A DNA stretch of 64,000 bases, from assembly GCF_013376005.1 (NCBI RefSeq), contig NZ_JABMJK010000003.1, positions 372,001-436,000 on the forward strand, in the 5' to 3' direction. This document shows, one piece after another, positions 38,020 to 47,582 of this stretch. Each line of letters starts with the position of its first letter. The first letter of the stretch is position 1. The translations under genes were made by a program, and so were the position numbers. The DNA is from Duganella sp. SG902 (GTDB lineage Bacteria; Pseudomonadota; Gammaproteobacteria; Burkholderiales; Burkholderiaceae_D). The notes below the pieces were generated by a model that saw only the letters and a list, made by a program, of their open reading frames with translations, did no database searches and was not told where the DNA came from.

Positions 38020-38676
38020 TTAAGCTCCCTTCTTTGCTTTAACTTTGACGGCAGGCGAAACCACGACCTGGCCGTTTTTGGCGCCAGGGATCGCACCTTT
38101 GACCAGCAGCAGCTGGCGCTCGGCGTCGATGCGGGCGATTTCGAGGTTCTGCACGGTCGTGGTGACATCACCCATGTGACCGGTCATGCGTTTGCCAGGG
38201 AACACGCGGCCTGGATCTTGCGCCATACCGATCGAACCTGGAACGTTGTGCGAACGCGAGTTACCGTGGGTCTGACGACCCGAAGCAAAGTTGTGACGCT
38301 TGATGGTGCCGGCGTAGCCTTTACCGATCGAAACACCTTGCACGTCGACTTTTTGACCTACTTCGAACAGCGAAACGGCGACAACTTCGCCAGCTTTCAG
38401 TTCGGCGGCTTTGGCGGCGTCGACGCGGAACTCTTTCAGCAGAGTACCGGCTTCAACACCAGCTTTAGCGTGGTGACCAGCAACGGCTTTGGTCACGCGG
38501 GAAGCGCGACGTTGACCGAATGCGACCTGAACCGCGGTATAGCCGTCAGTTTCAGGAGTTTTGATTTGCGCAACACGGTTGTTCGATACGTCGACAACGG
38601 TGACCGGGATCGAATCCCCGTCATCGGTGAAGATGCGCATCATACCAACCTTGCGACCGAGGAGGCCAAGGCTCAT
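38020..38676 (-). CDS. rplC: 50S ribosomal protein L3
   Basis: L3 is a primary binder of 23S rRNA. From ATG 38676 ([20 protein letters not shown]) with GGAG six bases upstream, it has 218 residues; an in-frame ATG at 38694 lacks a ribosome-binding site. The glutamine methylated by PrmB lies in [18 protein letters not shown], and the W-loop region follows. It is the first gene of the operon here, with its own candidate promoter at 38773-38801. In canonical S10 operons rpsJ would be immediately upstream. Confidence 0.97.
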
Positions 38677-38772
38677 TTTTTCTCCAATTCCCACCTACGA
38701 TTGGGCGGGGATATGTTGAACTACAAAAATAGTACGGACCAATAAAAAGACGAATCCATACCGAAGCCGGCT

Positions 38773-38801
38773 AGTGTACTGTGATTTGCCCCTTGACGCA
38801 A
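38773..38801 (-). promoter_or_regulatory. Candidate sigma70 promoter for rplC and the rest of the S10 operon
   Basis: On the minus strand TTGCGT (38796-38801) and TACACT (38773-38778) are 17 bases apart. The predicted start would give a leader of about 90 bases before rplC. The box lies between the toxin gene and rplC, exactly where a promoter is needed now that rpsJ is elsewhere. Confidence 0.5.
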
Positions 38802-38885
38802 CAACTTAGTACGAGGTATGTCGGTTTTTTGCGGGGAAGCGCGCCGGCGCGGCAAAACGCGGCTGCATGCGGGCTGGCGGCGCGG

Positions 38886-39173
38886 TCAAGCGGGGCGCTT
38901 TCTTGACGAATGCTTAACGCGCAGAAGATGCACGCCATCCGCCAGGACGCGATAAATGATCAAATAGTGAGAGTGCACCAGCAGTTCGCGCGTGTCGGCT
39001 TTACGGCCAACATGACCAATTTCAGGAAAGACGGCAAGTATGCTGGCTTTCCTTTCGATCTGGTCGAGCAATTTATCCGCATTCGCCGGGCTGTCAACGG
39101 CGACGCGCCGGCCAATCCGGATCAGGTCATTGACCGCAGCCGAGCTCCAGAACACTGGTCGCGGCTGCGCCAT
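38886..39173 (-). CDS. RelE/ParE-family toxin
   Basis: A 95-residue protein of the ParE/RelE fold. VFWSSAAVNDLIRIGRRVAV is the first helix region, FPEIGHVGRKADTRELLVHS the central strand with its conserved arginine, and YLIIYRVLADGVHLLRVKHS the final strands. These features define the RelE/ParE toxin superfamily; ParE members poison gyrase and RelE members cleave mRNA, and the sequence does not tell which. The start is one base after the antitoxin stop. It converges on no gene: rplC is downstream in the same direction, 210 bases away. Confidence 0.88.
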   Translation of the reverse strand: MAQPRPVFWSSAAVNDLIRIGRRVAVDSPANADKLLDQIERKASILAVFPEIGHVGRKADTRELLVHSHYLIIYRVLADGVHLLRVKHSSRKRPA

Positions 39174-39174
39174 T

Positions 39175-39537
39175 TTATTTAGCCTTGATCGCGGCCCGAA
39201 TCCGGCGCATGGCCTCGTTATGCGGAATCAACGGAGCGGAATCGTTAAGCGCTTCCTGCACCTCGCCGCTCAACCACTCGTCGTAGCCTTCCTCTTTTGC
39301 TAACTGCTTGACCTCAAACCGCTCAATCCCCAAGGCAAGCAAACGCTGCTCGACCGCTTGCAGCGCGTCAAACACCGCAGCTGTTTTACCTTCAAAATCC
39401 AACAAGGCGTGATCGCCCTGCTCGTCGTGCACATACACCACCCAGCCCTCGTCCCGCGCTTGAGCGGAGACGCTGAACTCTTTTTCGGTGTTAGCCAACA
39501 TGGCAAGTGCCGATGGCTGTATGGTCAGGGTCGTCAT
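39175..39537 (-). CDS. Probable antitoxin of the RelE/ParE module
   Basis: I place the start at ATG 39537 (MTTLTIQPSALAMLANTEKE), which has GGAGG eight bases upstream, giving 120 residues. The first 65 residues (SVSAQARDEGWVVYVHDEQG) are a small beta-rich segment of unknown type. The last 40 (DEWLSGEVQEALNDSAPLIP then HNEAMRRIRAAIKAK) match the C-terminal toxin-neutralising tail seen in stability-determinant antitoxins paired with ParE. It is one base upstream of the toxin. The same frame is open without a stop back into the DUF817 gene, so the protein could also be made as a fusion (see the finding). Confidence 0.7.
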   Translation of the reverse strand: MTTLTIQPSALAMLANTEKEFSVSAQARDEGWVVYVHDEQGDHALLDFEGKTAAVFDALQAVEQRLLALGIERFEVKQLAKEEGYDEWLSGEVQEALNDSAPLIPHNEAMRRIRAAIKAK

Positions 39538-39613
39538 GGCCAGCCTCCAATCCGATAAGGGAACCAATCTAGCACCGGCTGCGGCGCAAGGTTTGAGACA
39601 AAACAAGCCCTCT

Positions 39614-40461
39614 TCACAGCGTTCCGGCACATGGATGCTGGCCTTGATATGTTTCAAATTTGCCACGATGGTGAAGGTCATGATGACCAGCAGCGACCAC
39701 GAGCTCCACTTGCCGACGTGCACCGCCGACCAGGCGCCGATCTGGTTGGGATAGCGCCACACGCCCCAGAAGGTGCTGATGTTCTCGGCCAGCCAGATGA
39801 ACAGGCCGATCAGCACGAAGGCCAGCAGCAGCGGCATCTGGCGCTCGCGGTCCAGCGGCCGGAACACCGCCGTGGTGCGGGCGTACAGGCCCAGCGCGCA
39901 GGCCGCCAGGTACCAGCGGTAGTCGCCGATATAGTGGTGGGTGAAGAAGTTGGCGTAGATCAGCACGGCGATCAGCGCCGCCATCCAGTGCGGCGGATGA
40001 TGGCGGATGCGCAGGTCGAACAGCCGCCAGGCCTGGATGATGTAGCTGCCCACCGCCGCGTACATGAAGCCGGAGAACAGCGGCACGCCGAACAGCTTGC
40101 TCCAGGCGAAGTCGGGATAGCTCCACGACTGGATCGCGCCCGAGGTCTTGAACACTTCCAGCGCGAAGCCGACCGCATGGAACAGGCTGACGGCCTTCAG
40201 CTCGTCCCAGGTCTCCAGCCGGGCCCACACCATCCAGCCCTGGATCGCCAGCGCCGCCAGCAGCAGCACGTCGTAGCGCGGCAGGCCGAACAGCCCGGCG
40301 CGCGGCACCAGGAACACGGTGGCGAAAAACAGCGCCACGAACAGGCAGGCGCGCGCCTCCTTGATGCCGAAGTACCAGAATTCCGTCAGAAAGCGCGCGG
40401 CGCCGCGCAGGCCCGGGCGGGCGGCGCCGTCCAGCAGGTGGTGGTCGAGGGTGGCGAGCAT
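39614..40461 (-). pseudogene. DUF817 membrane protein; frame continues into the antitoxin, probable one-base deletion
   Basis: A DUF817 protein (YoaT-like) with about eight hydrophobic helices, e.g. ARACLFVALFFATVFLVPRA, VAALAIQG-like LLLAALAIQGWMVWARLE, and FVLIGLFIWLAENISTFWG; function unknown, membrane-located. The C-terminal family end VANLKHIKASIHVPER is present, but then the frame continues (CEEGLFCLKPCAAAG) for 30 residues into the antitoxin gene to a stop at 39175, giving 428 residues. In the adjacent frame a TGA follows at 39614-39616; one extra base near 39620 would give a normal ending of roughly 280 residues. This suggests a deletion or an assembly error. The coordinates given end at that expected stop. 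Confidence 0.6.
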
Positions 40462-40487
40462 GCCCGCTACTCTACCGTGACAGCGCC

Positions 40488-40520
40488 AAAAAAAACAGGC
40501 CGCCGGGACGGCGCGGCCTG
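40488..40520 (-). terminator. Rho-independent terminator after the cupin gene
   Basis: On the minus strand CAGGCCGC (40513-40520) pairs with GCGGCCTG (40496-40503), then eight Ts. It separates the cupin_8 gene from DUF817. Confidence 0.85.
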
Positions 40521-40589
40521 CGCAAGTGTTGGGGCGGCACGACCCGCCCCTCCCCCTCTCAGTACTGCAAGAGTCCGTTCAAGCCCGAC

Positions 40590-41627
40590 CTAGCGGTTCA
40601 GGCGGTTCAGCAATTGCGCGCGCAGCATGCGCGCGCCCATCTCGTCCAGCGGCGCCAGCGGCCCGCGCGCGGCCGGCGGCAAATGGGCCGCCTCGCCGCC
40701 GTCGCTGTCGAACACGTAGTGGCGGAAGATTTCGCGCCACGCCGCGCGCTGCGCCGGCGGCAGGTCGCGCATGGTCATCAGCCCCAGCAGCAAGGCGTTG
40801 TGCGGCGTGTCCATCCAGGCCGGCGACTGGCGCCACCAGTAGTTGATCAACAGATTGAACGCCTCCAGCCCCTCCACGTGGTGCCACCACATGCTGGGAA
40901 TGAACAGCGCGTCGCCAGCCTCCAGCTCGGCCGACTGGGCATGCGCCAACGCCTCGGCGAAGCGCGGGTAGCGTTCGAGGTCGGGCCGGTGCAGGTCGAC
41001 CATGCTGACCGACTGCCCGGCCGGGGTGAAATCGAGCGGCCCCACATACAGATTCTTCAGCTGCTCCGGCGGGAACAGGGTGAAGCGGCGGCGCCCGGCC
41101 GCCACGCACGCCAGGTTGTCCGGCAGGTCGTAATGGGCCGGCACGCGGGTGCGGTTGCCGATCCACAGGCTGGCCAGCGGGTCGCGCGCACCCAGGTTGA
41201 GGTCGTTCTCGGCGCGCAAGCCCGGCAGGCAGGTGTCGATGGTGGTCGAGCCCACGTACAGCGTGGGCGGCGCGGGCGCGTCGAGGTGGGCGGCCAGCGC
41301 GTCCAGCACCTGGTCGAAGCGCACCATCTGGCTGTGGAAGTTGAGCCCGCTCAGGTCGTCGTTGTAAAAAATGCGGCCGTCGCCGCCGGGCGGCTGATGG
41401 CTGGCCAGCACGGTGGCGTCGCGGTAGAAGCGGCGCAGATAGGCGTCGGCGGCGCGCGCCGACTGCCGTCCCGCCCGCACCAGCGGCCAGTGCGCCACCA
41501 GGCCGCGCAGCACCAGCGGCACCGGCGAGCACAGCACCTCGTCGGGCAGCGGCTGGCTGCCGTCGCCGCGCAGGTCGGCGCTGCGCGCGCAATCGATCTC
41601 GGCGATGGCGGTGAAACTGCGGGACAT
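40590..41627 (-). CDS. Cupin_8 (JmjC-like) domain protein
   Basis: A 345-residue protein of the cupin_8/JmjC-like superfamily, usually Fe(II)/2-oxoglutarate hydroxylases. The metal-binding region appears as PAHYDLPDNLACVAAGRRRF, with the HxD-type histidine, and the distal histidine in MWWHHVEGLEAFNLLINYWW. Genes of this kind often accompany TonB-dependent receptors and tryptophan-halogenase genes in Caulobacter and Xanthomonas; here only the receptor is present. It is 69 bases downstream of the receptor but a strong terminator (41640-41671) sits between, so its expression may be lower or separate. Substrate unknown. Confidence 0.8.
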   Translation of the reverse strand: MSRSFTAIAEIDCARSADLRGDGSQPLPDEVLCSPVPLVLRGLVAHWPLVRAGRQSARAADAYLRRFYRDATVLASHQPPGGDGRIFYNDDLSGLNFHSQMVRFDQVLDALAAHLDAPAPPTLYVGSTTIDTCLPGLRAENDLNLGARDPLASLWIGNRTRVPAHYDLPDNLACVAAGRRRFTLFPPEQLKNLYVGPLDFTPAGQSVSMVDLHRPDLERYPRFAEALAHAQSAELEAGDALFIPSMWWHHVEGLEAFNLLINYWWRQSPAWMDTPHNALLLGLMTMRDLPPAQRAAWREIFRHYVFDSDGGEAAHLPPAARGPLAPLDEMGARMLRAQLLNRLNR

Positions 41628-41639
41628 GAATTCTCTCGA

Positions 41640-41671
41640 GAAAACAGGCCGCCGCCGGGGCGGCGGCCTGT
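41640..41671 (-). terminator. Rho-independent terminator after the TonB-dependent receptor
   Basis: On the minus strand ACAGGCCGCCGCC pairs with GGCGGCGGCCTGT across a short CC centre and is followed by TTTTC. It lies between the receptor stop and the cupin_8 start, about 10 bases before the latter's ribosome-binding site. Confidence 0.8.
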
Positions 41672-41696
41672 GGACTTACTCAGCTGCCAATCAAGC

Positions 41697-44681
41697 TTAG
41701 AACTTGTAACGCAGGCCCAGCATGTAACGCGGACCGGCTTGCGTCACATTCAGGGTGGCCGCCTCGGTACGGCCGTGCTGGCGCGTGGTGCGGTCGGTGA
41801 GGTTGATCGCCTCGGCCTGGAAGCTCAGGTTCTTGTTGAAATTGTAGCCGATGCTGAGGTCGACCTGGCCATAGGCGTCGGTGTACACCGGCGCCGCGCG
41901 GCCATTGCCGTCGACCGTGGCGGCCAGGAAGGAATCGCGCCAGTTGTAGGCCACCCGCACCGACCAGTCCTTGTTCTCGAAGATACCGACCAGGTTGGCC
42001 GAGTTGCTCAAGCCCAGGATCGCGAACTGGTCGTTCACGTCGGCGTTGTTGTACTTCAGCGGCGAGTGCACGTAGGTGTAGTTGGCCTGCACGCCGAAGC
42101 CGCTCTGGCCGAACATATGCTGCACGTTGACCTCGGCGCCGCTGACGTCGGCCGACTTCTGGTTGGCGTAGGTGGTGGTCTGGAAGTTCAGGATCGGATC
42201 GGTCGGCAGGCCGGTGATGGTGCCGTCCAGCATGCCGTCGGGCTTCACGCCGGTCTTCTTGACGCCGGGCTGGCCGTCGAAGTTGCCCAGGATGTAGTTG
42301 CGGATGCAGTTGGTGTCGGCCGCGGTACAGCCGCCGGTGGACAACGCCGCCTTGTAGTAGGCGCCGCCGACCGGGGTGTGCAGGTCGTACAGCGACTGCG
42401 ACACCAGCGTCTGGCCGGCGTAGTTGTCCATCTGCTTGCGGAAGTAGGCCAGCGACAGCACGCTCTGCTTGTCGTAATACCATTCCCACGACAGGTCCAG
42501 ATTCTTCGACTTGACCGGCTTCAGCGCCGGGTTGCCGACCGAGGCGGTGCCGCCGGTGAACACGTTGGCGATGGTGCCCAGGGTCAGGCCGCCCTGCAGC
42601 TGGTCGTAGCGGGCGCGGCCGATGGTGGTGCCCAGGCTGGCGCGCAGCTTCATGTCGCTGCGGATGTCGGCGTCCAGGTTGAGGGCCGGCAGCACGTTGG
42701 TGTAGGAGGCGTCGGTGTTGCTGAACGCCTGGCCGCCAAAGGTGATCGGCAATTCATTCTGCGCCACCCACACCACGGCCGTGCCCGGCAGCACCTGCGC
42801 CACCGAGGTGACCTTGGTGCGCTCCAGGCGCAAGCCCACCGACGAGTGGAACGGGATCGCGGTATCCCAGTCGGTGTTGAACGAGGCGTAGGCCGAGGTG
42901 GTTTTCTCCTGCAAGGTGCGGTCGGTGTCCGGCTTGGTCATGTTCGGCAGGTAGGCGGCCTGGTTGCCGACCGCGTTGGCGGTGAGCTGGCGCACCGTGG
43001 CGAAGTCGAAGCTGTACAGGGTGGCGAACAGGTTGGGCGAGTTCGAACCGCCCAGCTTGTTGAAGAACGAGGACATCGGGTTGGCCGTCCACAGGCTGGC
43101 CGGATAGTCCGAGGGCTTGGTGGCGCCGCCCCAGGTGTTGTTCTGCACGTTGGAGTAGGTCGAGCGGTTGGTGGTGTCGGTGTAGCTGACGCCGAAGTTC
43201 AGGTCGGACGCCTCCAGCAGCTTCAGGTTGGCCTTCGCCTGGGCTTGCTTGATGGTGGATTTCTCGTAGCTGTTGTGGAACCACGAACCGGCCGCCTGGA
43301 TCGGCGCCGCCGCCAGGTTGGCCGCCGGCATGGTCAGCACCGGCAACTCGGTGGTGAAGTCGACCTTGGTGGTGCCGCGGCTGAAGCTGGCGTTGGACAG
43401 CGTGTTTTCGGAACCGAACGGGCTGTCGGCGCCCGACTCGGCGGTCGAGTGGTGGGCGTCGAACTCCACCTTCAGGTCCGGCGTGGCTTTCCACACGGTG
43501 TTGAAGCCCAGCGACTTGTTCTTGGTCTTGGTGGCGAAATCGCCGCCCACCACCGAGATGTCCTGCGGCGTCGGGTAGACTTCCTGGTAGGTCAGCGGGC
43601 TGACCACGTGGCCGCTCGGCCAGGTGCTGGTCGAGGTCGGGGTCTGGGCGAACCACACGCTCAGTTCGCTACGCTTGGTCTGGATCTTGTTTTCCGAGAA
43701 GGTGTAGTCGACCGTGGTGGTCAGGTCCTTGACCGGGCGGAACTGGAAGGTCAGCTGGCCGTTGGTGCGCTGACGCTGGATGGCCGACGAGTTGTAGCCG
43801 AAGTTCTGCGGAATCGAGTACAGCGCGTCCGGGGCCGGACGGTTGGTGATGTTCTGCGAGCCGGGCTGGCCGGGCTGCGGCAGGGTCTGGCCGTCGATCA
43901 CGGCCGAGCCCAGGTACGGGCCCTGGTAGCCGTTGAACAGGCCGGCGCGGTTGACGCCCGAGTCGCGCGACTGGTAGCTGCCGCTCACCGCCACGCCGAA
44001 GCGGCCGTCTGCGCTGGTGTTGGTGTAGATGCCCGAGACTTCCGGCGTCACGCTCTTGCCCTTGAAGGCGTCCACCACGTGGTCGTTGGAGGTGTCCTTC
44101 AGCGCCTTGACGCCGACGCTGGCGTGCAGGCCGGGATTGTCGAACGGACGGCCGGTCACCACGTTGATGGTGGCGCCGATGCCGCCGCTCGGGCTGTCGG
44201 CGCGGCCGGTCTTGTACACCTGCAGCTGGGAGATCGATTCCGAGGCCAGGTTGGAGAAGTCGAACGAGCGGCCGGACAGGTCGCTCAGGTCGGTGGTCGG
44301 CATCTGGCGGCCGTTCAGCAGCACCAGGTTGAAGTCCGGGCCGAGGCCGCGCACGGTGACCTTCTGGCCTTCGCCGTTGCTGCGGTCGATCGACACGCCG
44401 GAAATCCGCTGCAGCGATTCGGCCAGGTTGGTGTCCGGGAATTTACCCATGTCCTCGGCCACGATGCCATCGACGATGCCATCGGAGTTGCGCTTCAGGT
44501 TCAGCGTCGACTGCATACTGGCGCGGATGCCGGTCACCACCACCGACGGCGTGGTGTCGGTGGCGGCGGTGTTGTCTTGCGCTTGGGCCAGGCCGAAGGC
44601 GGCGCAGGCGCCGGCCACCGCGACACTGATCAGACGGCGCTGTCGTGGCGCCTTTGAAAACGTTTTCATCGAAGTACGCAC
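41697..44681 (-). CDS. TonB-dependent outer-membrane receptor, carbohydrate-type
   Basis: A 994-residue outer-membrane transporter. I favour GTG 44681, which has AAGGAG five bases upstream; an ATG at 44669 is 17 bases from it. After a signal peptide (LISVAVAGACAAFGLAQAQD), the plug domain contains VVVTGIRASMQSTLNLKR, IVAEDMGKFPDTNLAESLQR and VTVRGLGPDFNLVLLNGRQM, typical of the receptor group whose members import sugars or oligomers in Caulobacter and Xanthomonas rather than siderophores. The barrel ends GPRYMLGLRYKF, with the terminal aromatic residue needed for insertion. It is divergent from a ROK regulator, which may be induced by the imported sugar. Promoter and palindrome lie at 44849-44877. 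Confidence 0.9.
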   Translation of the reverse strand: MRTSMKTFSKAPRQRRLISVAVAGACAAFGLAQAQDNTAATDTTPSVVVTGIRASMQSTLNLKRNSDGIVDGIVAEDMGKFPDTNLAESLQRISGVSIDRSNGEGQKVTVRGLGPDFNLVLLNGRQMPTTDLSDLSGRSFDFSNLASESISQLQVYKTGRADSPSGGIGATINVVTGRPFDNPGLHASVGVKALKDTSNDHVVDAFKGKSVTPEVSGIYTNTSADGRFGVAVSGSYQSRDSGVNRAGLFNGYQGPYLGSAVIDGQTLPQPGQPGSQNITNRPAPDALYSIPQNFGYNSSAIQRQRTNGQLTFQFRPVKDLTTTVDYTFSENKIQTKRSELSVWFAQTPTSTSTWPSGHVVSPLTYQEVYPTPQDISVVGGDFATKTKNKSLGFNTVWKATPDLKVEFDAHHSTAESGADSPFGSENTLSNASFSRGTTKVDFTTELPVLTMPAANLAAAPIQAAGSWFHNSYEKSTIKQAQAKANLKLLEASDLNFGVSYTDTTNRSTYSNVQNNTWGGATKPSDYPASLWTANPMSSFFNKLGGSNSPNLFATLYSFDFATVRQLTANAVGNQAAYLPNMTKPDTDRTLQEKTTSAYASFNTDWDTAIPFHSSVGLRLERTKVTSVAQVLPGTAVVWVAQNELPITFGGQAFSNTDASYTNVLPALNLDADIRSDMKLRASLGTTIGRARYDQLQGGLTLGTIANVFTGGTASVGNPALKPVKSKNLDLSWEWYYDKQSVLSLAYFRKQMDNYAGQTLVSQSLYDLHTPVGGAYYKAALSTGGCTAADTNCIRNYILGNFDGQPGVKKTGVKPDGMLDGTITGLPTDPILNFQTTTYANQKSADVSGAEVNVQHMFGQSGFGVQANYTYVHSPLKYNNADVNDQFAILGLSNSANLVGIFENKDWSVRVAYNWRDSFLAATVDGNGRAAPVYTDAYGQVDLSIGYNFNKNLSFQAEAINLTDRTTRQHGRTEAATLNVTQAGPRYMLGLRYKF

Positions 44682-45023
44682 TTCATCTCCTTATTTTGAT
44701 TATTCCGGCGTTGCGCTGCCGGAGTTGATTGCTACTCAAACTGACTGCTGGGTAGTTCTGTACAAAGGCGCCGCAGAACACGGACGGCGGTGTGATGCCC
44801 GCCTGGGAGGCTGTCCGACTCGTGCTGAGTGACTTATTAGACAAGTTCAGAATAGGAGAAACGCTTCCATTCGTCAATCGGTCGAACAATCTATGCACCG
44901 ATTCTGCCCATCGGTGTTGTAACGACGCACCAGAACGGTTAGTTCCGCCCCGCGTTGGATCTTTAGTCGATATGACAAGCTTGGTGTATCATCGGCGGAT
45001 TCCCCCTTTCGGAACTCCGCCCC
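44682..45023. other. Divergent intergenic region between TonB-dependent receptor and ROK regulator
   Basis: 342 bases without a gene. It contains the receptor ribosome-binding site (44687-44692), a leader of about 160 bases, the receptor promoter (44849-44877) with a palindrome in its spacer, and a stretch before the ROK gene where I could not pick a confident promoter. Local A+T content is higher than in the flanking genes. Confidence 0.7.
44849..44877 (-). promoter_or_regulatory. Sigma70 promoter of the receptor with an operator-like palindrome
   Basis: On the minus strand TTGACG (44872-44877), 17 bases, TATTCT (44849-44854). Within the spacer GAAGCGTTTC (44858-44867) has the AARCGYTT core and near-palindromic symmetry typical of LacI/GalR operators. 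Repressor binding here would block polymerase. The adjacent regulator is ROK, not LacI, so the true ligand is unclear. Confidence 0.6.
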
Positions 45024-46298
45024 ATGATCGTTGCCGGCGACCAGCAGTTACTCAAGCAAATCAATCGCATGGCACTGGTGCGCCAGTTGTGCAGCGTGCC
45101 GGGCTTGTCGCGCGCGGCGCTGGCCGAGGCCGTTGGCCTGACCAAGTCCACCGTCAGCCTGCTGGTGCGCGAGCTGCTGGACGAAGGCTGGCTGACCGAG
45201 AGCGACATCCGCGTCACCGGCGCGCTGGGCCGGCGCGCCACGCCGCTGCAGCTGGACGGCGAACGGCTGGCCCTGCTGGGGGCCGACCTTGGCATCGGCA
45301 TGGCGCGCATCGTCGCCACCAACCTGCTGGGCGAGGTGCTGGCCGAGCAGGAACTGCCCTACCTCGACCCGGCCGACACCGCCGGCTGCATCGGCCTGAT
45401 GGCGCAGGGCCTGGCCGAGCTGGCCATGGGCGTGGCGCTGGCCGGGCGCACCGTGCTGGGCGTCGGCGTCGGCCTGCACGGCGTGGTGGACGACGCCACC
45501 GGCGTGCTGCACTACGCGCCGCACCTGGGCTGGCGCAACGTCGACGTCGCCGGCCAGCTGCGCGCCCACTTCGCCGGCACGCCGCTGGCCGAGCTGCCGC
45601 TGTTCATTCAAAACGAGGCCAACGTGGCGGCGCTGGCCGAGCTGGAGTTCTCCGGCCAGGTCGACGCCGACCCGCTGATCTACCTCAGCATCGGCTACGG
45701 CGTCGGCGCCGGCATCATCGTCAACGGCCGCCTGCTGACCGGCTTGTACGGCTTCGCCGGCGAGGTCGGCCACACCATCCTGCAGCAGGGCGGCCCGCCC
45801 TGCTCGTGCGGCCGGCGCGGCTGCGCCGACGCGCTGATCGGCCTGCAAGCCTTGCTGGACGAGGTGTACGGCAAGCTGCCGCAGTCGACGCCGGAGCAGC
45901 TGGAACAATTGTTCACCGAGGCCGAGGCGGAATCCGGCCACGCCGCGCGCGCGGTGGAGTCGGCCGGGCGCAACCTCGGCGTGCTGTTGAACAACCTGTG
46001 GGTGGCGTTCGACCCGATGTGCATCGTCATCGGCGGCGCCGCGCTGCGCCTGGGCGAGCGCTTCATCGGTCCGGGCCGCGGCGTGCTGCACGACTGCGCC
46101 AGCGCCACCGGGCTGCCGGCGCCCACCATCCGCACGCCCCACTTCGGCAACAACGCCATCGCGATCGGCGGCGCCGCCATGGCGCGCCACTACCTGATGC
46201 GCCCGTTCTCCGAGCAAAGCCCGGCGCGCCGCCACCACGCCCACAAGCTGGGCGAGCTGGCGCCGGCGCTGGCGGCCGGCATGCTGGCCTGGAACTGA
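45024..46298 (+). CDS. ROK-family transcriptional regulator
   Basis: A 424-residue repressor of the NagC/Mlc/XylR type. A winged helix-turn-helix ([20 protein letters not shown] then [16 protein letters not shown]) at about 25-60 precedes a ROK domain with the sugar-kinase-like fold ([20 protein letters not shown]) and the zinc-binding signature [14 protein letters not shown] near 260-275, plus the upstream [12 protein letters not shown]. Such regulators sense free sugars or their phosphates. Divergence from the receptor at 41697-44681 makes the latter its probable target. Its 3' end converges on the siderophore-interacting gene with a 13-base gap. Confidence 0.9.
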
Positions 46299-46311
46299 CG
46301 GCCGCCGCGCG

Positions 46312-47019
46312 CTAATCGAGCCCGGTCTTGCCGGGCGCCCAGTAAGCCTTGCTCTGGCGCCGCGCGGCGCCGACGCCGTGCTCGCGCAGCAGGCGGCCCA
46401 TGTGCTGGATGGCGCCGGCCTTGCCGGTCAACACCACGTCGGCCATGGGATGGGCCGCCAGCAGCGCCGCCATGTGCGCATCGAGCGCGTGCTCCGCGCT
46501 TTCCACGCTGGCGTTGCGCAGCTGCAGCCGCTCGGCGACCGCCCGCGTCTGGCCGGGGTCGCGCGCCGCGAACAGCATGTGGGTGGTGGCCTCGGCCGAC
46601 AGCGCCACCGCCAGCCCGAGCGAGGTTTCATCGCCAAACAGGATCACCGGCGAGGCCGCCGGCGCCAGGCGCACCGACTTGCGCGGGCCGAAGAAAGCGC
46701 AGGCGTCGCCCTGGCGCAGCGTGCGCGCCCAGCGTGTGCCGGGCGCGTCGCCGTGCAGGTAAACCAGGATGCGGGTGCGGCCTTCGGCGGCGTCCCAGTC
46801 CAGCGGCGTATAGGTGCGCTGGGTCCAGCCGCCGAGCATCAGTTGGATCTTGTCGCCGGGCGTCCAGTCGACATCGCGCAAGGCGTCGCCGCCCAGGGTG
46901 ATCAGGCGGAAGTCCGGGCTCGGCTCGGCGATCTCCAGCACCCGCGCGCCGCGCGTGAAGATTTTTTGCAGCGCCGCTTCAAACACGCCGGCGCGTTTGG
47001 GGGAAAGTGTGGTGTCCAT
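46312..47019 (-). CDS. Siderophore-interacting protein (FAD-binding ferric-siderophore reductase)
   Basis: A 235-residue cytosolic flavoprotein of the SIP family. The FAD-binding N-terminal half has [20 protein letters not shown] with the diagnostic RxYT motif, followed by [20 protein letters not shown] and a C-terminal NAD(P)-like domain ([18 protein letters not shown]). The C-terminus [12 protein letters not shown] matches siderophore-interacting proteins. These enzymes release iron by reducing the siderophore complex. I start at ATG 47019; an in-frame ATG at 47070 would add a poorly conserved leader and overlap the rpsJ terminator. No Fur box was found upstream. Confidence 0.85.
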
Positions 47020-47061
47020 GCTGAGGTAGACGGGCCACGCGCGCGAATATTTTGGCGCCGC

Positions 47062-47100
47062 CAAAAACAACGGGCCCGGACGCTTGCGCGTGCGGGCCCG
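47062..47100 (-). terminator. Rho-independent terminator after rpsJ
   Basis: On the minus strand CGGGCCCG (plus a mismatch) ACGC pairs with GCGT and CGGGCCCG (47071-47100), followed by TTGTTTTTGG (47061-47070). It lies 38 bases past the rpsJ stop, so rpsJ transcription should end before the accessory block. Confidence 0.85.
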
Positions 47101-47138
47101 TCATCAGCCGGCAGCCGTGGCTGCCAACTTAAAACCGA

Positions 47139-47456
47139 TTACTGCAGTTTGATTTCGACATCAACGCCGGCTGGCAGGTCCAGCTTCATCAGGGCGTCAA
47201 CGGTCTTGTCGGTTGGGTCGACGATGTCCATCAGGCGCTGGTGGGTGCGGATTTCGAACTGGTCGCGCGAGGTCTTGTTGACGTGCGGCGAACGCAGAAC
47301 GTCGAAACGCTGGATGCGGGTTGGCAGTGGGACCGGGCCTTTGACCACGGCGCCGGTGCGCTTGGCGGTGTCCACGATTTCCAGGGCCGATTGGTCGATC
47401 AGCTTGTAGTCGAAAGCCTTCAGGCGGATACGGATTTTTTGATTGGTAACGGTCAT
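47139..47456 (-). CDS. rpsJ: 30S ribosomal protein S10
   Basis: S10 is a head protein that also joins NusB in antitermination complexes. The 105-residue product has [20 protein letters not shown] and [20 protein letters not shown], both universal, and a normal C-terminus. The ribosome-binding site GAGGA is well placed. It is separated from rplC by 8.46 kb, and terminators lie on both sides, so it should be transcribed alone. In most bacteria rpsJ is the first gene of the S10 operon; here the operon begins with rplC. Confidence 0.97.
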
Positions 47457-47501
47457 GATAATTTCCTCAAAGAGCGAACTGGCAACTTTGTAGCGCCAGC
47501 A

Positions 47502-47530
47502 ATTTAAAAAGAACGAGTTTTTTAAAACAA
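47502..47530 (-). promoter_or_regulatory. Possible rpsJ promoter, overlapping the tuf terminator tail
   Basis: On the minus strand TTGTTT (47525-47530), 17 bases, TTAAAT (47502-47507). Each hexamer has only three or four matches to sigma70. The -35 coincides with the T-run of the tuf terminator. Confidence 0.3.
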
Positions 47531-47559
47531 GGCCGACATGGTATCACACCATGTCGGCC
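47521..47559 (-). terminator. Rho-independent terminator after tuf
   Basis: GGCCGACATGGT (47531-47542) pairs with ACCATGTCGGCC (47548-47559) around five bases, followed on the minus strand by TTGTTTTAAA. It lies 24 bases past the tuf stop. Confidence 0.92.
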
Positions 47560-47582
47560 CTGCTTCACATCACGCTAAAAAA

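Follow-up and report, generated by a model that had tools for sequence, protein, structure and literature searches.

A long-lived interval of variable genes between rpsJ and rplC in the Massilia, Duganella and Janthinobacterium group, probably tolerated at an older transcription boundary

The genes rpsJ and rplC, for the ribosomal proteins (r-proteins) S10 and L3, form one of the most conserved gene pairs of bacteria. We investigated a stretch of 64,000 nucleotides (nt) from Duganella sp. SG902 (contig NZ_JABMJK010000003.1, positions 372,001 to 436,000; hereafter the window), in which these two genes lie ~8.4 kb apart with seven genes between them, in a ribosomal gene order that is otherwise canonical. 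What we take to be tuf and fusA stand 5' of rpsJ, and rplD, rplW, rplB and rpsS, likewise named from their sequences, follow rplC in the usual order. A first-pass annotation of the window had reported an accessory block between rpsJ and rplC, and its inventory (toxin, antitoxin, DUF817, Cupin_8, TonB receptor, ROK and SIP-type genes), the canonical order of the flanking ribosomal genes and the agreement of the block edges with a terminator and a promoter were all borne out (Table 1). Its view of the block as an insertion dividing the S10 operon was not, since the break apparently falls between transcription units, a promoter-like site and a leader being present before rplC in unsplit relatives too. 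We consider it likely that the interval, held across a clade, is a gap tolerated at a transcription boundary older than the opening, and that genes are slowly gained and lost in it.

Table 1. Features at and between rpsJ and rplC in the window (positions count from the first nucleotide of the window; ORF, open reading frame)
Feature	Position	Strand	Basis or remark
rpsJ (S10)	47139..47456	-	Ribosomal_S10, PF00338 8.8e-37
Intrinsic-terminator-like hairpin and T run after rpsJ	47063..47101	-	fold of 47060-47110, z-score -4.28
Siderophore-interacting (FAD_binding_9/SIP) protein	46312..47070	-	PF08021 9.7e-12; SIP under cut-off
ROK regulator	45024..46298	+	PF00480 1.4e-46; glucokinase, NagC and Mlc models under cut-off
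TonB-dependent receptor, TonB-Xanth-Caul type	41697..44681	-	TIGR01782 4.3e-197
Cupin_8 protein	40590..41627	-	PF13621 4.8e-74
DUF817 protein	39175..40461	-	PF05675 4.3e-98; stop lost, ORF continues through antitoxin gene
RelB-like antitoxin	39175..39540	-	NF050103 7.4e-11, under cut-off
ParE/RelE-family toxin	38886..39173	-	PF05016 5.1e-16; TIGR02385 under its cut-off
Conserved GACATACC	38815..38822	-	upstream of rplC -35
rplC promoter-like site	38773..38801	-	-35 TTGCGT, 17 nt, -10 TACACT
rplC structured 5' leader RNA	38677..38768	-	P1 of 8 pairs, P2 of 6 pairs with loop CAAUCGUA, then GGAG
rplC (L3)	38020..38676	-	Ribosomal_L3; ORF reaches GTG 38694

The split is common to nearly all measured genomes of the window's genus. 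Among the 74 genomes searched, rpsJ was found in 71, rplC in 72 and both on one contig in 69 (the two genes lie on different contigs in G155 and G308, and G327, G328 and G334 lack one or both). In 66 of these 69, the genes are separated by 2.3–24.7 kb with variable genes inside, and in the other three by 243–245 bp. Both genes were also located in 57 of 80 named loci, 26 of them split at 3.4–9.4 kb and 31 adjacent at 146–361 bp. All 26 measurable loci named Duganella, Rugamonas, Pseudoduganella, Janthinobacterium or Massilia are split, and the adjacent loci belong to Herbaspirillum, Collimonas, Undibacterium, Noviherbaspirillum, Oxalicibacterium, Sapientia, Keguizhuia and others. Of the 23 named loci without rpsJ in the piece, 19 have at least 4 kb before rplC, every one being a Duganella, a Massilia or a metagenome-assembled genome (MAG) placed among Massilia on the tree, and four end no more than 2 kb from rplC. 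Twelve of the named split loci duplicate an interval of the genus set exactly, and the 92 split loci reduce to 80 distinct ones. At the level of the order, 112 of 120 genomes were measurable (the count excludes G439, with a partial rplC and no rpsJ), and the 108 outside the family have a median gap of 108 bp, with one gap of 756 bp and four above 1 kb. Those four, G349, G380, G393 and G424, come from other families of the order and have distances of 15–79 kb between rpsJ and rplC.

The opening is special to this junction. At the 19 following junctions of the S10/spc region in 94 loci, the largest of 1786 gaps was 508 bp (two spurious ORFs having been removed from the gene list), and every gap above 140 bp occurred at a single junction, which we take from its sequence to be rpsQ–rplN. 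An assembly join error in the window was considered and found unlikely, because 65 other genomes of the genus have the interval, several of them single-contig; rpsJ and rplC each gave one match genome-wide, and the locus lies on a 610-kb contig. No 23S rRNA was matched in the window's own draft genome (G000).

In a FastTree tree of the S10/spc region (94 taxa, 9059 columns), the split loci form one clade, with a support of 0.978 without L048, the deepest split locus, and 0.509 with it, and the unsplit genera stand outside. On this tree the interval opens once and closes once. The three adjacent genomes of the genus (G296, G301 and G307) nest inside the split clade (0.99), and their spacers retain strong hairpins after rpsJ, of -30 to -38 kcal/mol, which resemble by eye those of their split neighbors and fit closing by deletion. 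A candidate unsplit Duganella, L028, was set aside, since the MAG so labelled groups with Herbaspirillum on the tree and is probably misnamed. The first-pass annotation had suggested checking whether the block appears in only some genera. The occurrence is not a scattered one: within a clade of several genera almost every measured member has the interval, and it has a single opening. The comparison across Oxalobacteraceae that the annotation had called for showed that the interval is not family-wide; the interval is a clade trait with variable genes, and not the same genes everywhere.

At the rplC edge, the promoter-like site occupies a fixed place (17-nt spacing, GGCT at ≤10 nt) in all 92 split loci and in 32 of the 34 unsplit loci. 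The split loci carry it as TTGCGT-17-TACACT in 73 cases, with TATACT in 13 and TAAACT in 6 as the second element, and the unsplit loci have a pair at 17-nt spacing, e.g., TTGTAA–TATAAT. The conserved GACATACC was found with at most one mismatch in 91 of the 92 split and 23 of the 34 unsplit loci (raw count). Since the promoter-like site and the leader described below occur in split and unsplit relatives alike, rplC was probably a separate transcription unit before the interval opened, and genes arriving between rpsJ and rplC would then cost little. At the rpsJ edge, 85 of the 92 split loci have a hairpin of -12 kcal/mol or stronger, beside T-rich sequence, downstream of rpsJ, compared with 12 of 188 random S10/spc stretches, which are mostly coding. 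Transcription would thus stop after rpsJ and start anew before rplC, if these edge signals act as they appear.

The most novel part of the locus is the leader RNA predicted before rplC (presumed 5' end at 38768), which matches no Rfam family. In an alignment of 49 sequences (47 distinct) from split and unsplit relatives, which begins near the transcription start and ends at the ATG, the two helices pair in 93.3% of cells (P1 88.3%, P2 100%), compared with 34.6–45.6% when slid; because the helices were read from the alignment that also served for testing, the comparison is somewhat biased toward them. Changes on both sides were found in 6 of the 8 P1 pairs and 2 of the 6 P2 pairs (8 of 14 in total), and 44 cells are altered on both sides, compared with 13.9 in shuffles. 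By this comparative measure, the leader qualifies as a conserved structure with compensatory changes, and its case rests on the covariation, since the single-sequence fold of the window leader is ordinary (z -1.15; -2.83 in L042 and -3.25 in L074). A covariance model gave one match in each of 13 of the 120 order genomes (E ≤0.1, strict filters), comprising all four family members and 9 of the 116 others, and all 13 matches end ~30 nt or less from the rplC start or overlap it. The same kind of search in 32 loci, chosen around rplC or earlier matches, returned 19 rows at E ≤1, some of them duplicate places. Searched with Rfam models, the window gave no hit at the gathering score, and 38600–38900 gave none at E ≤10. 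In several unsplit genomes a T run follows P1 and resembles an attenuator, so that attenuation and translational control are both candidate modes, and we regard this leader as a concrete candidate for a new r-protein regulator. The true start of rplC is probably the ATG at 38676 rather than 38694, since this ATG is conserved in the leader alignment, with GGAG just 5' of it.

The interval genes cluster into 107 families, 55 of which are singletons (as obtained with a simple gene caller, which missed small genes such as the toxin, and single-linkage clusters). No family is common to all intervals, and the commonest, TonB receptor F1, is present in 41 of 69 intervals by clustering or 31 of 68 by tblastn of representatives. 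On the tree, the fewest changes required are two each for the ter-type cluster, the ROK gene, the window-type TonB receptor and Cupin_8, and five for DUF817 (with 5–14 of the 94 rows scored as no information). The ter-type cluster (StiP/PELOTA, PRTase_2/TRSP, ATPgrasp_Ter, C-C bond lyase and TerD) separates creBCD from rplC in several Massilia; one with StiP/PELOTA and TerD precedes rplC in L064, L254 and other Massilia intervals. L158 (the G305 interval) holds VgrG, Tle3, Tla3-like and TssG matches, and L160 (the G326 interval) a LanC-like protein with a kinase domain, a C39 ABC transporter, an HlyD protein and an autoinducer synthase.

Genes resembling creBCD (CreD by Pfam, a response regulator and a histidine kinase) are present in 23 of the 69 intervals, and within the genus creD is confined to this place. 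It was found in 26 of the 74 genomes, 23 times in the measured interval, and was not seen elsewhere; in G155 and G308, where rpsJ is on a separate contig, it immediately precedes rplC, and in the remaining genome, G328, rplC gave no match. In the family as a whole, 77 of 294 genomes have creD, none of them from g27 (genus labels from matching coordinates: g6, Janthinobacterium; g12 and g19, Massilia; g27, Herbaspirillum; g29, Collimonas; g33, Undibacterium). By the creD–rplC distance alone, creD lies ≤13 kb upstream of rplC in all 22 g6 genomes, both g4 genomes and 10 of the 12 g12 genomes, the other two being without a listed rplC. In nine genomes of other genera in which the two genes could be compared on one contig (six Collimonas, two Undibacterium and one g31), the distance is 100 kb or more. 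In a creD tree of 54 rows (four of 58 were dropped for want of creC or for odd length), most interval copies form one clade (0.91) within the family creD, and the groups resemble those of the species tree. The creD of L116 (the G299 interval) is in two pieces and apparently broken.

As for the window's own genes, the best named models for the ROK regulator are sugar-related, every one under its cut-off. Since a TIGR01782-type receptor adjoins Cupin_8 and this ROK gene, the receptor set points to carbohydrate uptake rather than siderophore uptake, its make-up being closer to that of sets for carbohydrates. SapC sits between the TonB receptor and Cupin_8 in some relatives. A C-terminal comparison placed the stop of DUF817, in the listed relatives with complete ends, no more than three residues from an IHV or IHI motif; the window gene is without that stop and stays open, in the same frame, into the antitoxin gene. 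Relatives of the antitoxin adjoin ParE in other Duganella intervals. On the far side of rpsJ, the tuf–rpsJ spacer (47457–47582) holds a strong palindrome, and -10-like sites were seen by eye in several relatives; rpsJ may have its own promoter there.

A number of observations weigh against a tolerated gap at an older boundary with slow turnover. The promoter-like site of the split clade is weak, with 13 of 92 loci reaching 8 of 12 and all reaching 7, compared with 30 of 34 unsplit loci at 8, and shuffled stretches reached 7 in 351 and 8 in 205 of 2520 cases; the case thus rests on the fixed position and not on the score. A plain consensus scan of the window, under stricter rules, listed neither the rplC promoter nor the rpsJ terminator. 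The hairpin after rpsJ is present in the three re-closed genomes and in only 7 of the 31 primarily unsplit loci, whose stretches differ in length, so that a full boundary predating the split is unsupported and the terminator appears mainly as a feature of the split state; our early assumption that it is ancestral was dropped on this count. The rpsQ–rplN boundary (197–508 bp) is without a large insertion in all 94 loci, which indicates that a long spacer or a boundary alone is insufficient to explain the site. The split clade that includes L048 has the low support given above, and L048 itself carries none of the tested modules within 10 kb. Turnover is considerable for some genes: TonB receptor F1 needs 15 changes on the tree and creD nine, and DUF817, present in one copy each in 37 of 74 genomes, has its copy inside the interval in 22 of them and at another place in 15, patterns by which part of the content often moves or is lost. 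Finally, the creD of G113 (g19) is divergent and on a different contig from rplC, that of L258 is also divergent, and L258 and L256 (from G113) fall outside the interval creD clade. By these distributions, some of the content is long resident, some has been lost and some was gained later.

The same patterns bear on the other explanations. That the interval is a hot spot, repeatedly taking up unrelated DNA through homologous recombination between its highly conserved flanks, agrees with the wide range of gap sizes (2.3–24.7 kb), the 55 singletons among 107 families, the 15 changes of TonB receptor F1, and once-seen cargo such as the VgrG/Tle3 genes of G305 and the lanthipeptide-type set of G326. 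However, the ter-type cluster, window-type receptor, Cupin_8 and ROK gene change only twice each, and most interval creD copies fall in one clade, with creD not seen elsewhere in the genus; we therefore hold this explanation as possible, and lean against it. Selection could also keep the interval open, for example through gene dosage near the ribosomal cluster or through insulation of rpsJ from rplC, and it would account for 66 of 69 genus genomes being open although one closure shows that closing is possible. With no family common to all intervals and the commonest in 41 of 69 or 31 of 68, we regard such selection as unlikely.

A recent mobile or genomic island stabilized by its toxin–antitoxin (TA) pair, a stabilizing role that the first-pass annotation had suggested for the pair, would fit the position of the pair at the rplC edge, the G+C content of 0.59–0.74 in the block compared with 0.56–0.60 in the ribosomal flanks, and the differences in content between species. 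However, no integrase, transposase or recombinase family was detected among the window genes or the 44 of 107 interval families scanned, and no convincing direct repeat of at least 18 nt was seen among the 20 of 50 direct-repeat families listed, all weak and internal, in agreement with the earlier remark that no integrase, transposase or edge repeat was seen. Besides the window, antitoxin relatives are present in only 8 of the 68 fetched genus intervals (three closed ones included), so that the TA pair does not keep the interval, and its proposed role as stabilizer was rejected; the antitoxin was found without the toxin in L113 and L141 and a toxin without the antitoxin in L046, and L006 and L123 have a partial toxin match. 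The distribution over a multi-genus clade, with 66 of 69 genus genomes split and not a sporadic few, together with the window's receptor, Cupin_8 and ROK genes changing just twice each, led us to reject a recent arrival, and the island explanation retains at most a very slight chance.

We thus return to the tolerated gap, for which the following history is proposed. The rpsJ–rplC spacer would have opened once, in an ancestor shared by the Massilia/Duganella/Janthinobacterium group, with founding genes that may have included creBCD. The opening would have been tolerated because transcription from rplC onward probably already started at its own promoter, with its own structured leader RNA, and rpsJ would later have acquired a strong terminator as its end. 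Genes could then have been gained and lost between two fixed edges, by homologous recombination between the conserved flanks or by illegitimate events, with one later closure. The present state of the window would be the ROK–TonB receptor–Cupin_8 set, DUF817, the SIP-type gene and the TA pair, and elsewhere creBCD, a ter-type cluster or other genes would occupy the same place. A more far-reaching version, which we put forward tentatively and would sooner doubt than accept, is that control of the S10 region moved from rpsJ to rplC in Burkholderiales: a new autoregulatory leader, perhaps bound by L4 or L3, would have turned rplC and the genes after it into a separate unit and left rpsJ free-standing, and in one clade the junction would have become a long-lived docking site, the sole home of creBCD seen in the genus.

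These results correct the idea of a newly arrived island maintained by a toxin–antitoxin pair. A clade in which rpsJ and rplC stand 2–25 kb apart suggests that conservation of the pair depends on where transcription units start, and it offers a natural experiment on whether the two genes must stay together for r-protein synthesis. In Escherichia coli, the S10 leader mediates autoregulation by L4. The leader found here likewise is a predicted structured RNA at the head of S10-region r-protein genes, but as a candidate regulator it precedes rplC, not rpsJ. A further comparison comes from a paper that we take to be by Eckert and Weinberg (2020). In the parts of it that concern this region (PMC7247131), a leader of the L4 type in front of rplC appears for Archaeoglobi only, and no Burkholderiales motif is given. 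In the open-licence literature searched, we found no description of the rpsJ–rplC split or of an rplC leader in this order. Variable chromosomal regions between core genes are known for fixed core flanks and changing cargo. The interval shares both of these features, with no integrase seen in the families scanned, but differs in lying inside a ribosomal protein gene cluster and in having long-lived residents. The closest likeness is to breaks between the str and S10 clusters in Gammaproteobacteria and Bacilli, for which the relevant sections of Brandis 2021 (PMC8046335) describe insertions of bfd–bfr and ilv–leu, respectively, often followed by further separation, judge distant transfer of the inserted genes unlikely and leave the mechanism open. 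As in those sections, ordinary extra genes stand here between cluster members whose flanking order is kept, whereas the present break lies one gene further on, between rpsJ and rplC, in another bacterial group, and combines a wide turnover of content with one nested group that has closed again (compare PMC8046335).

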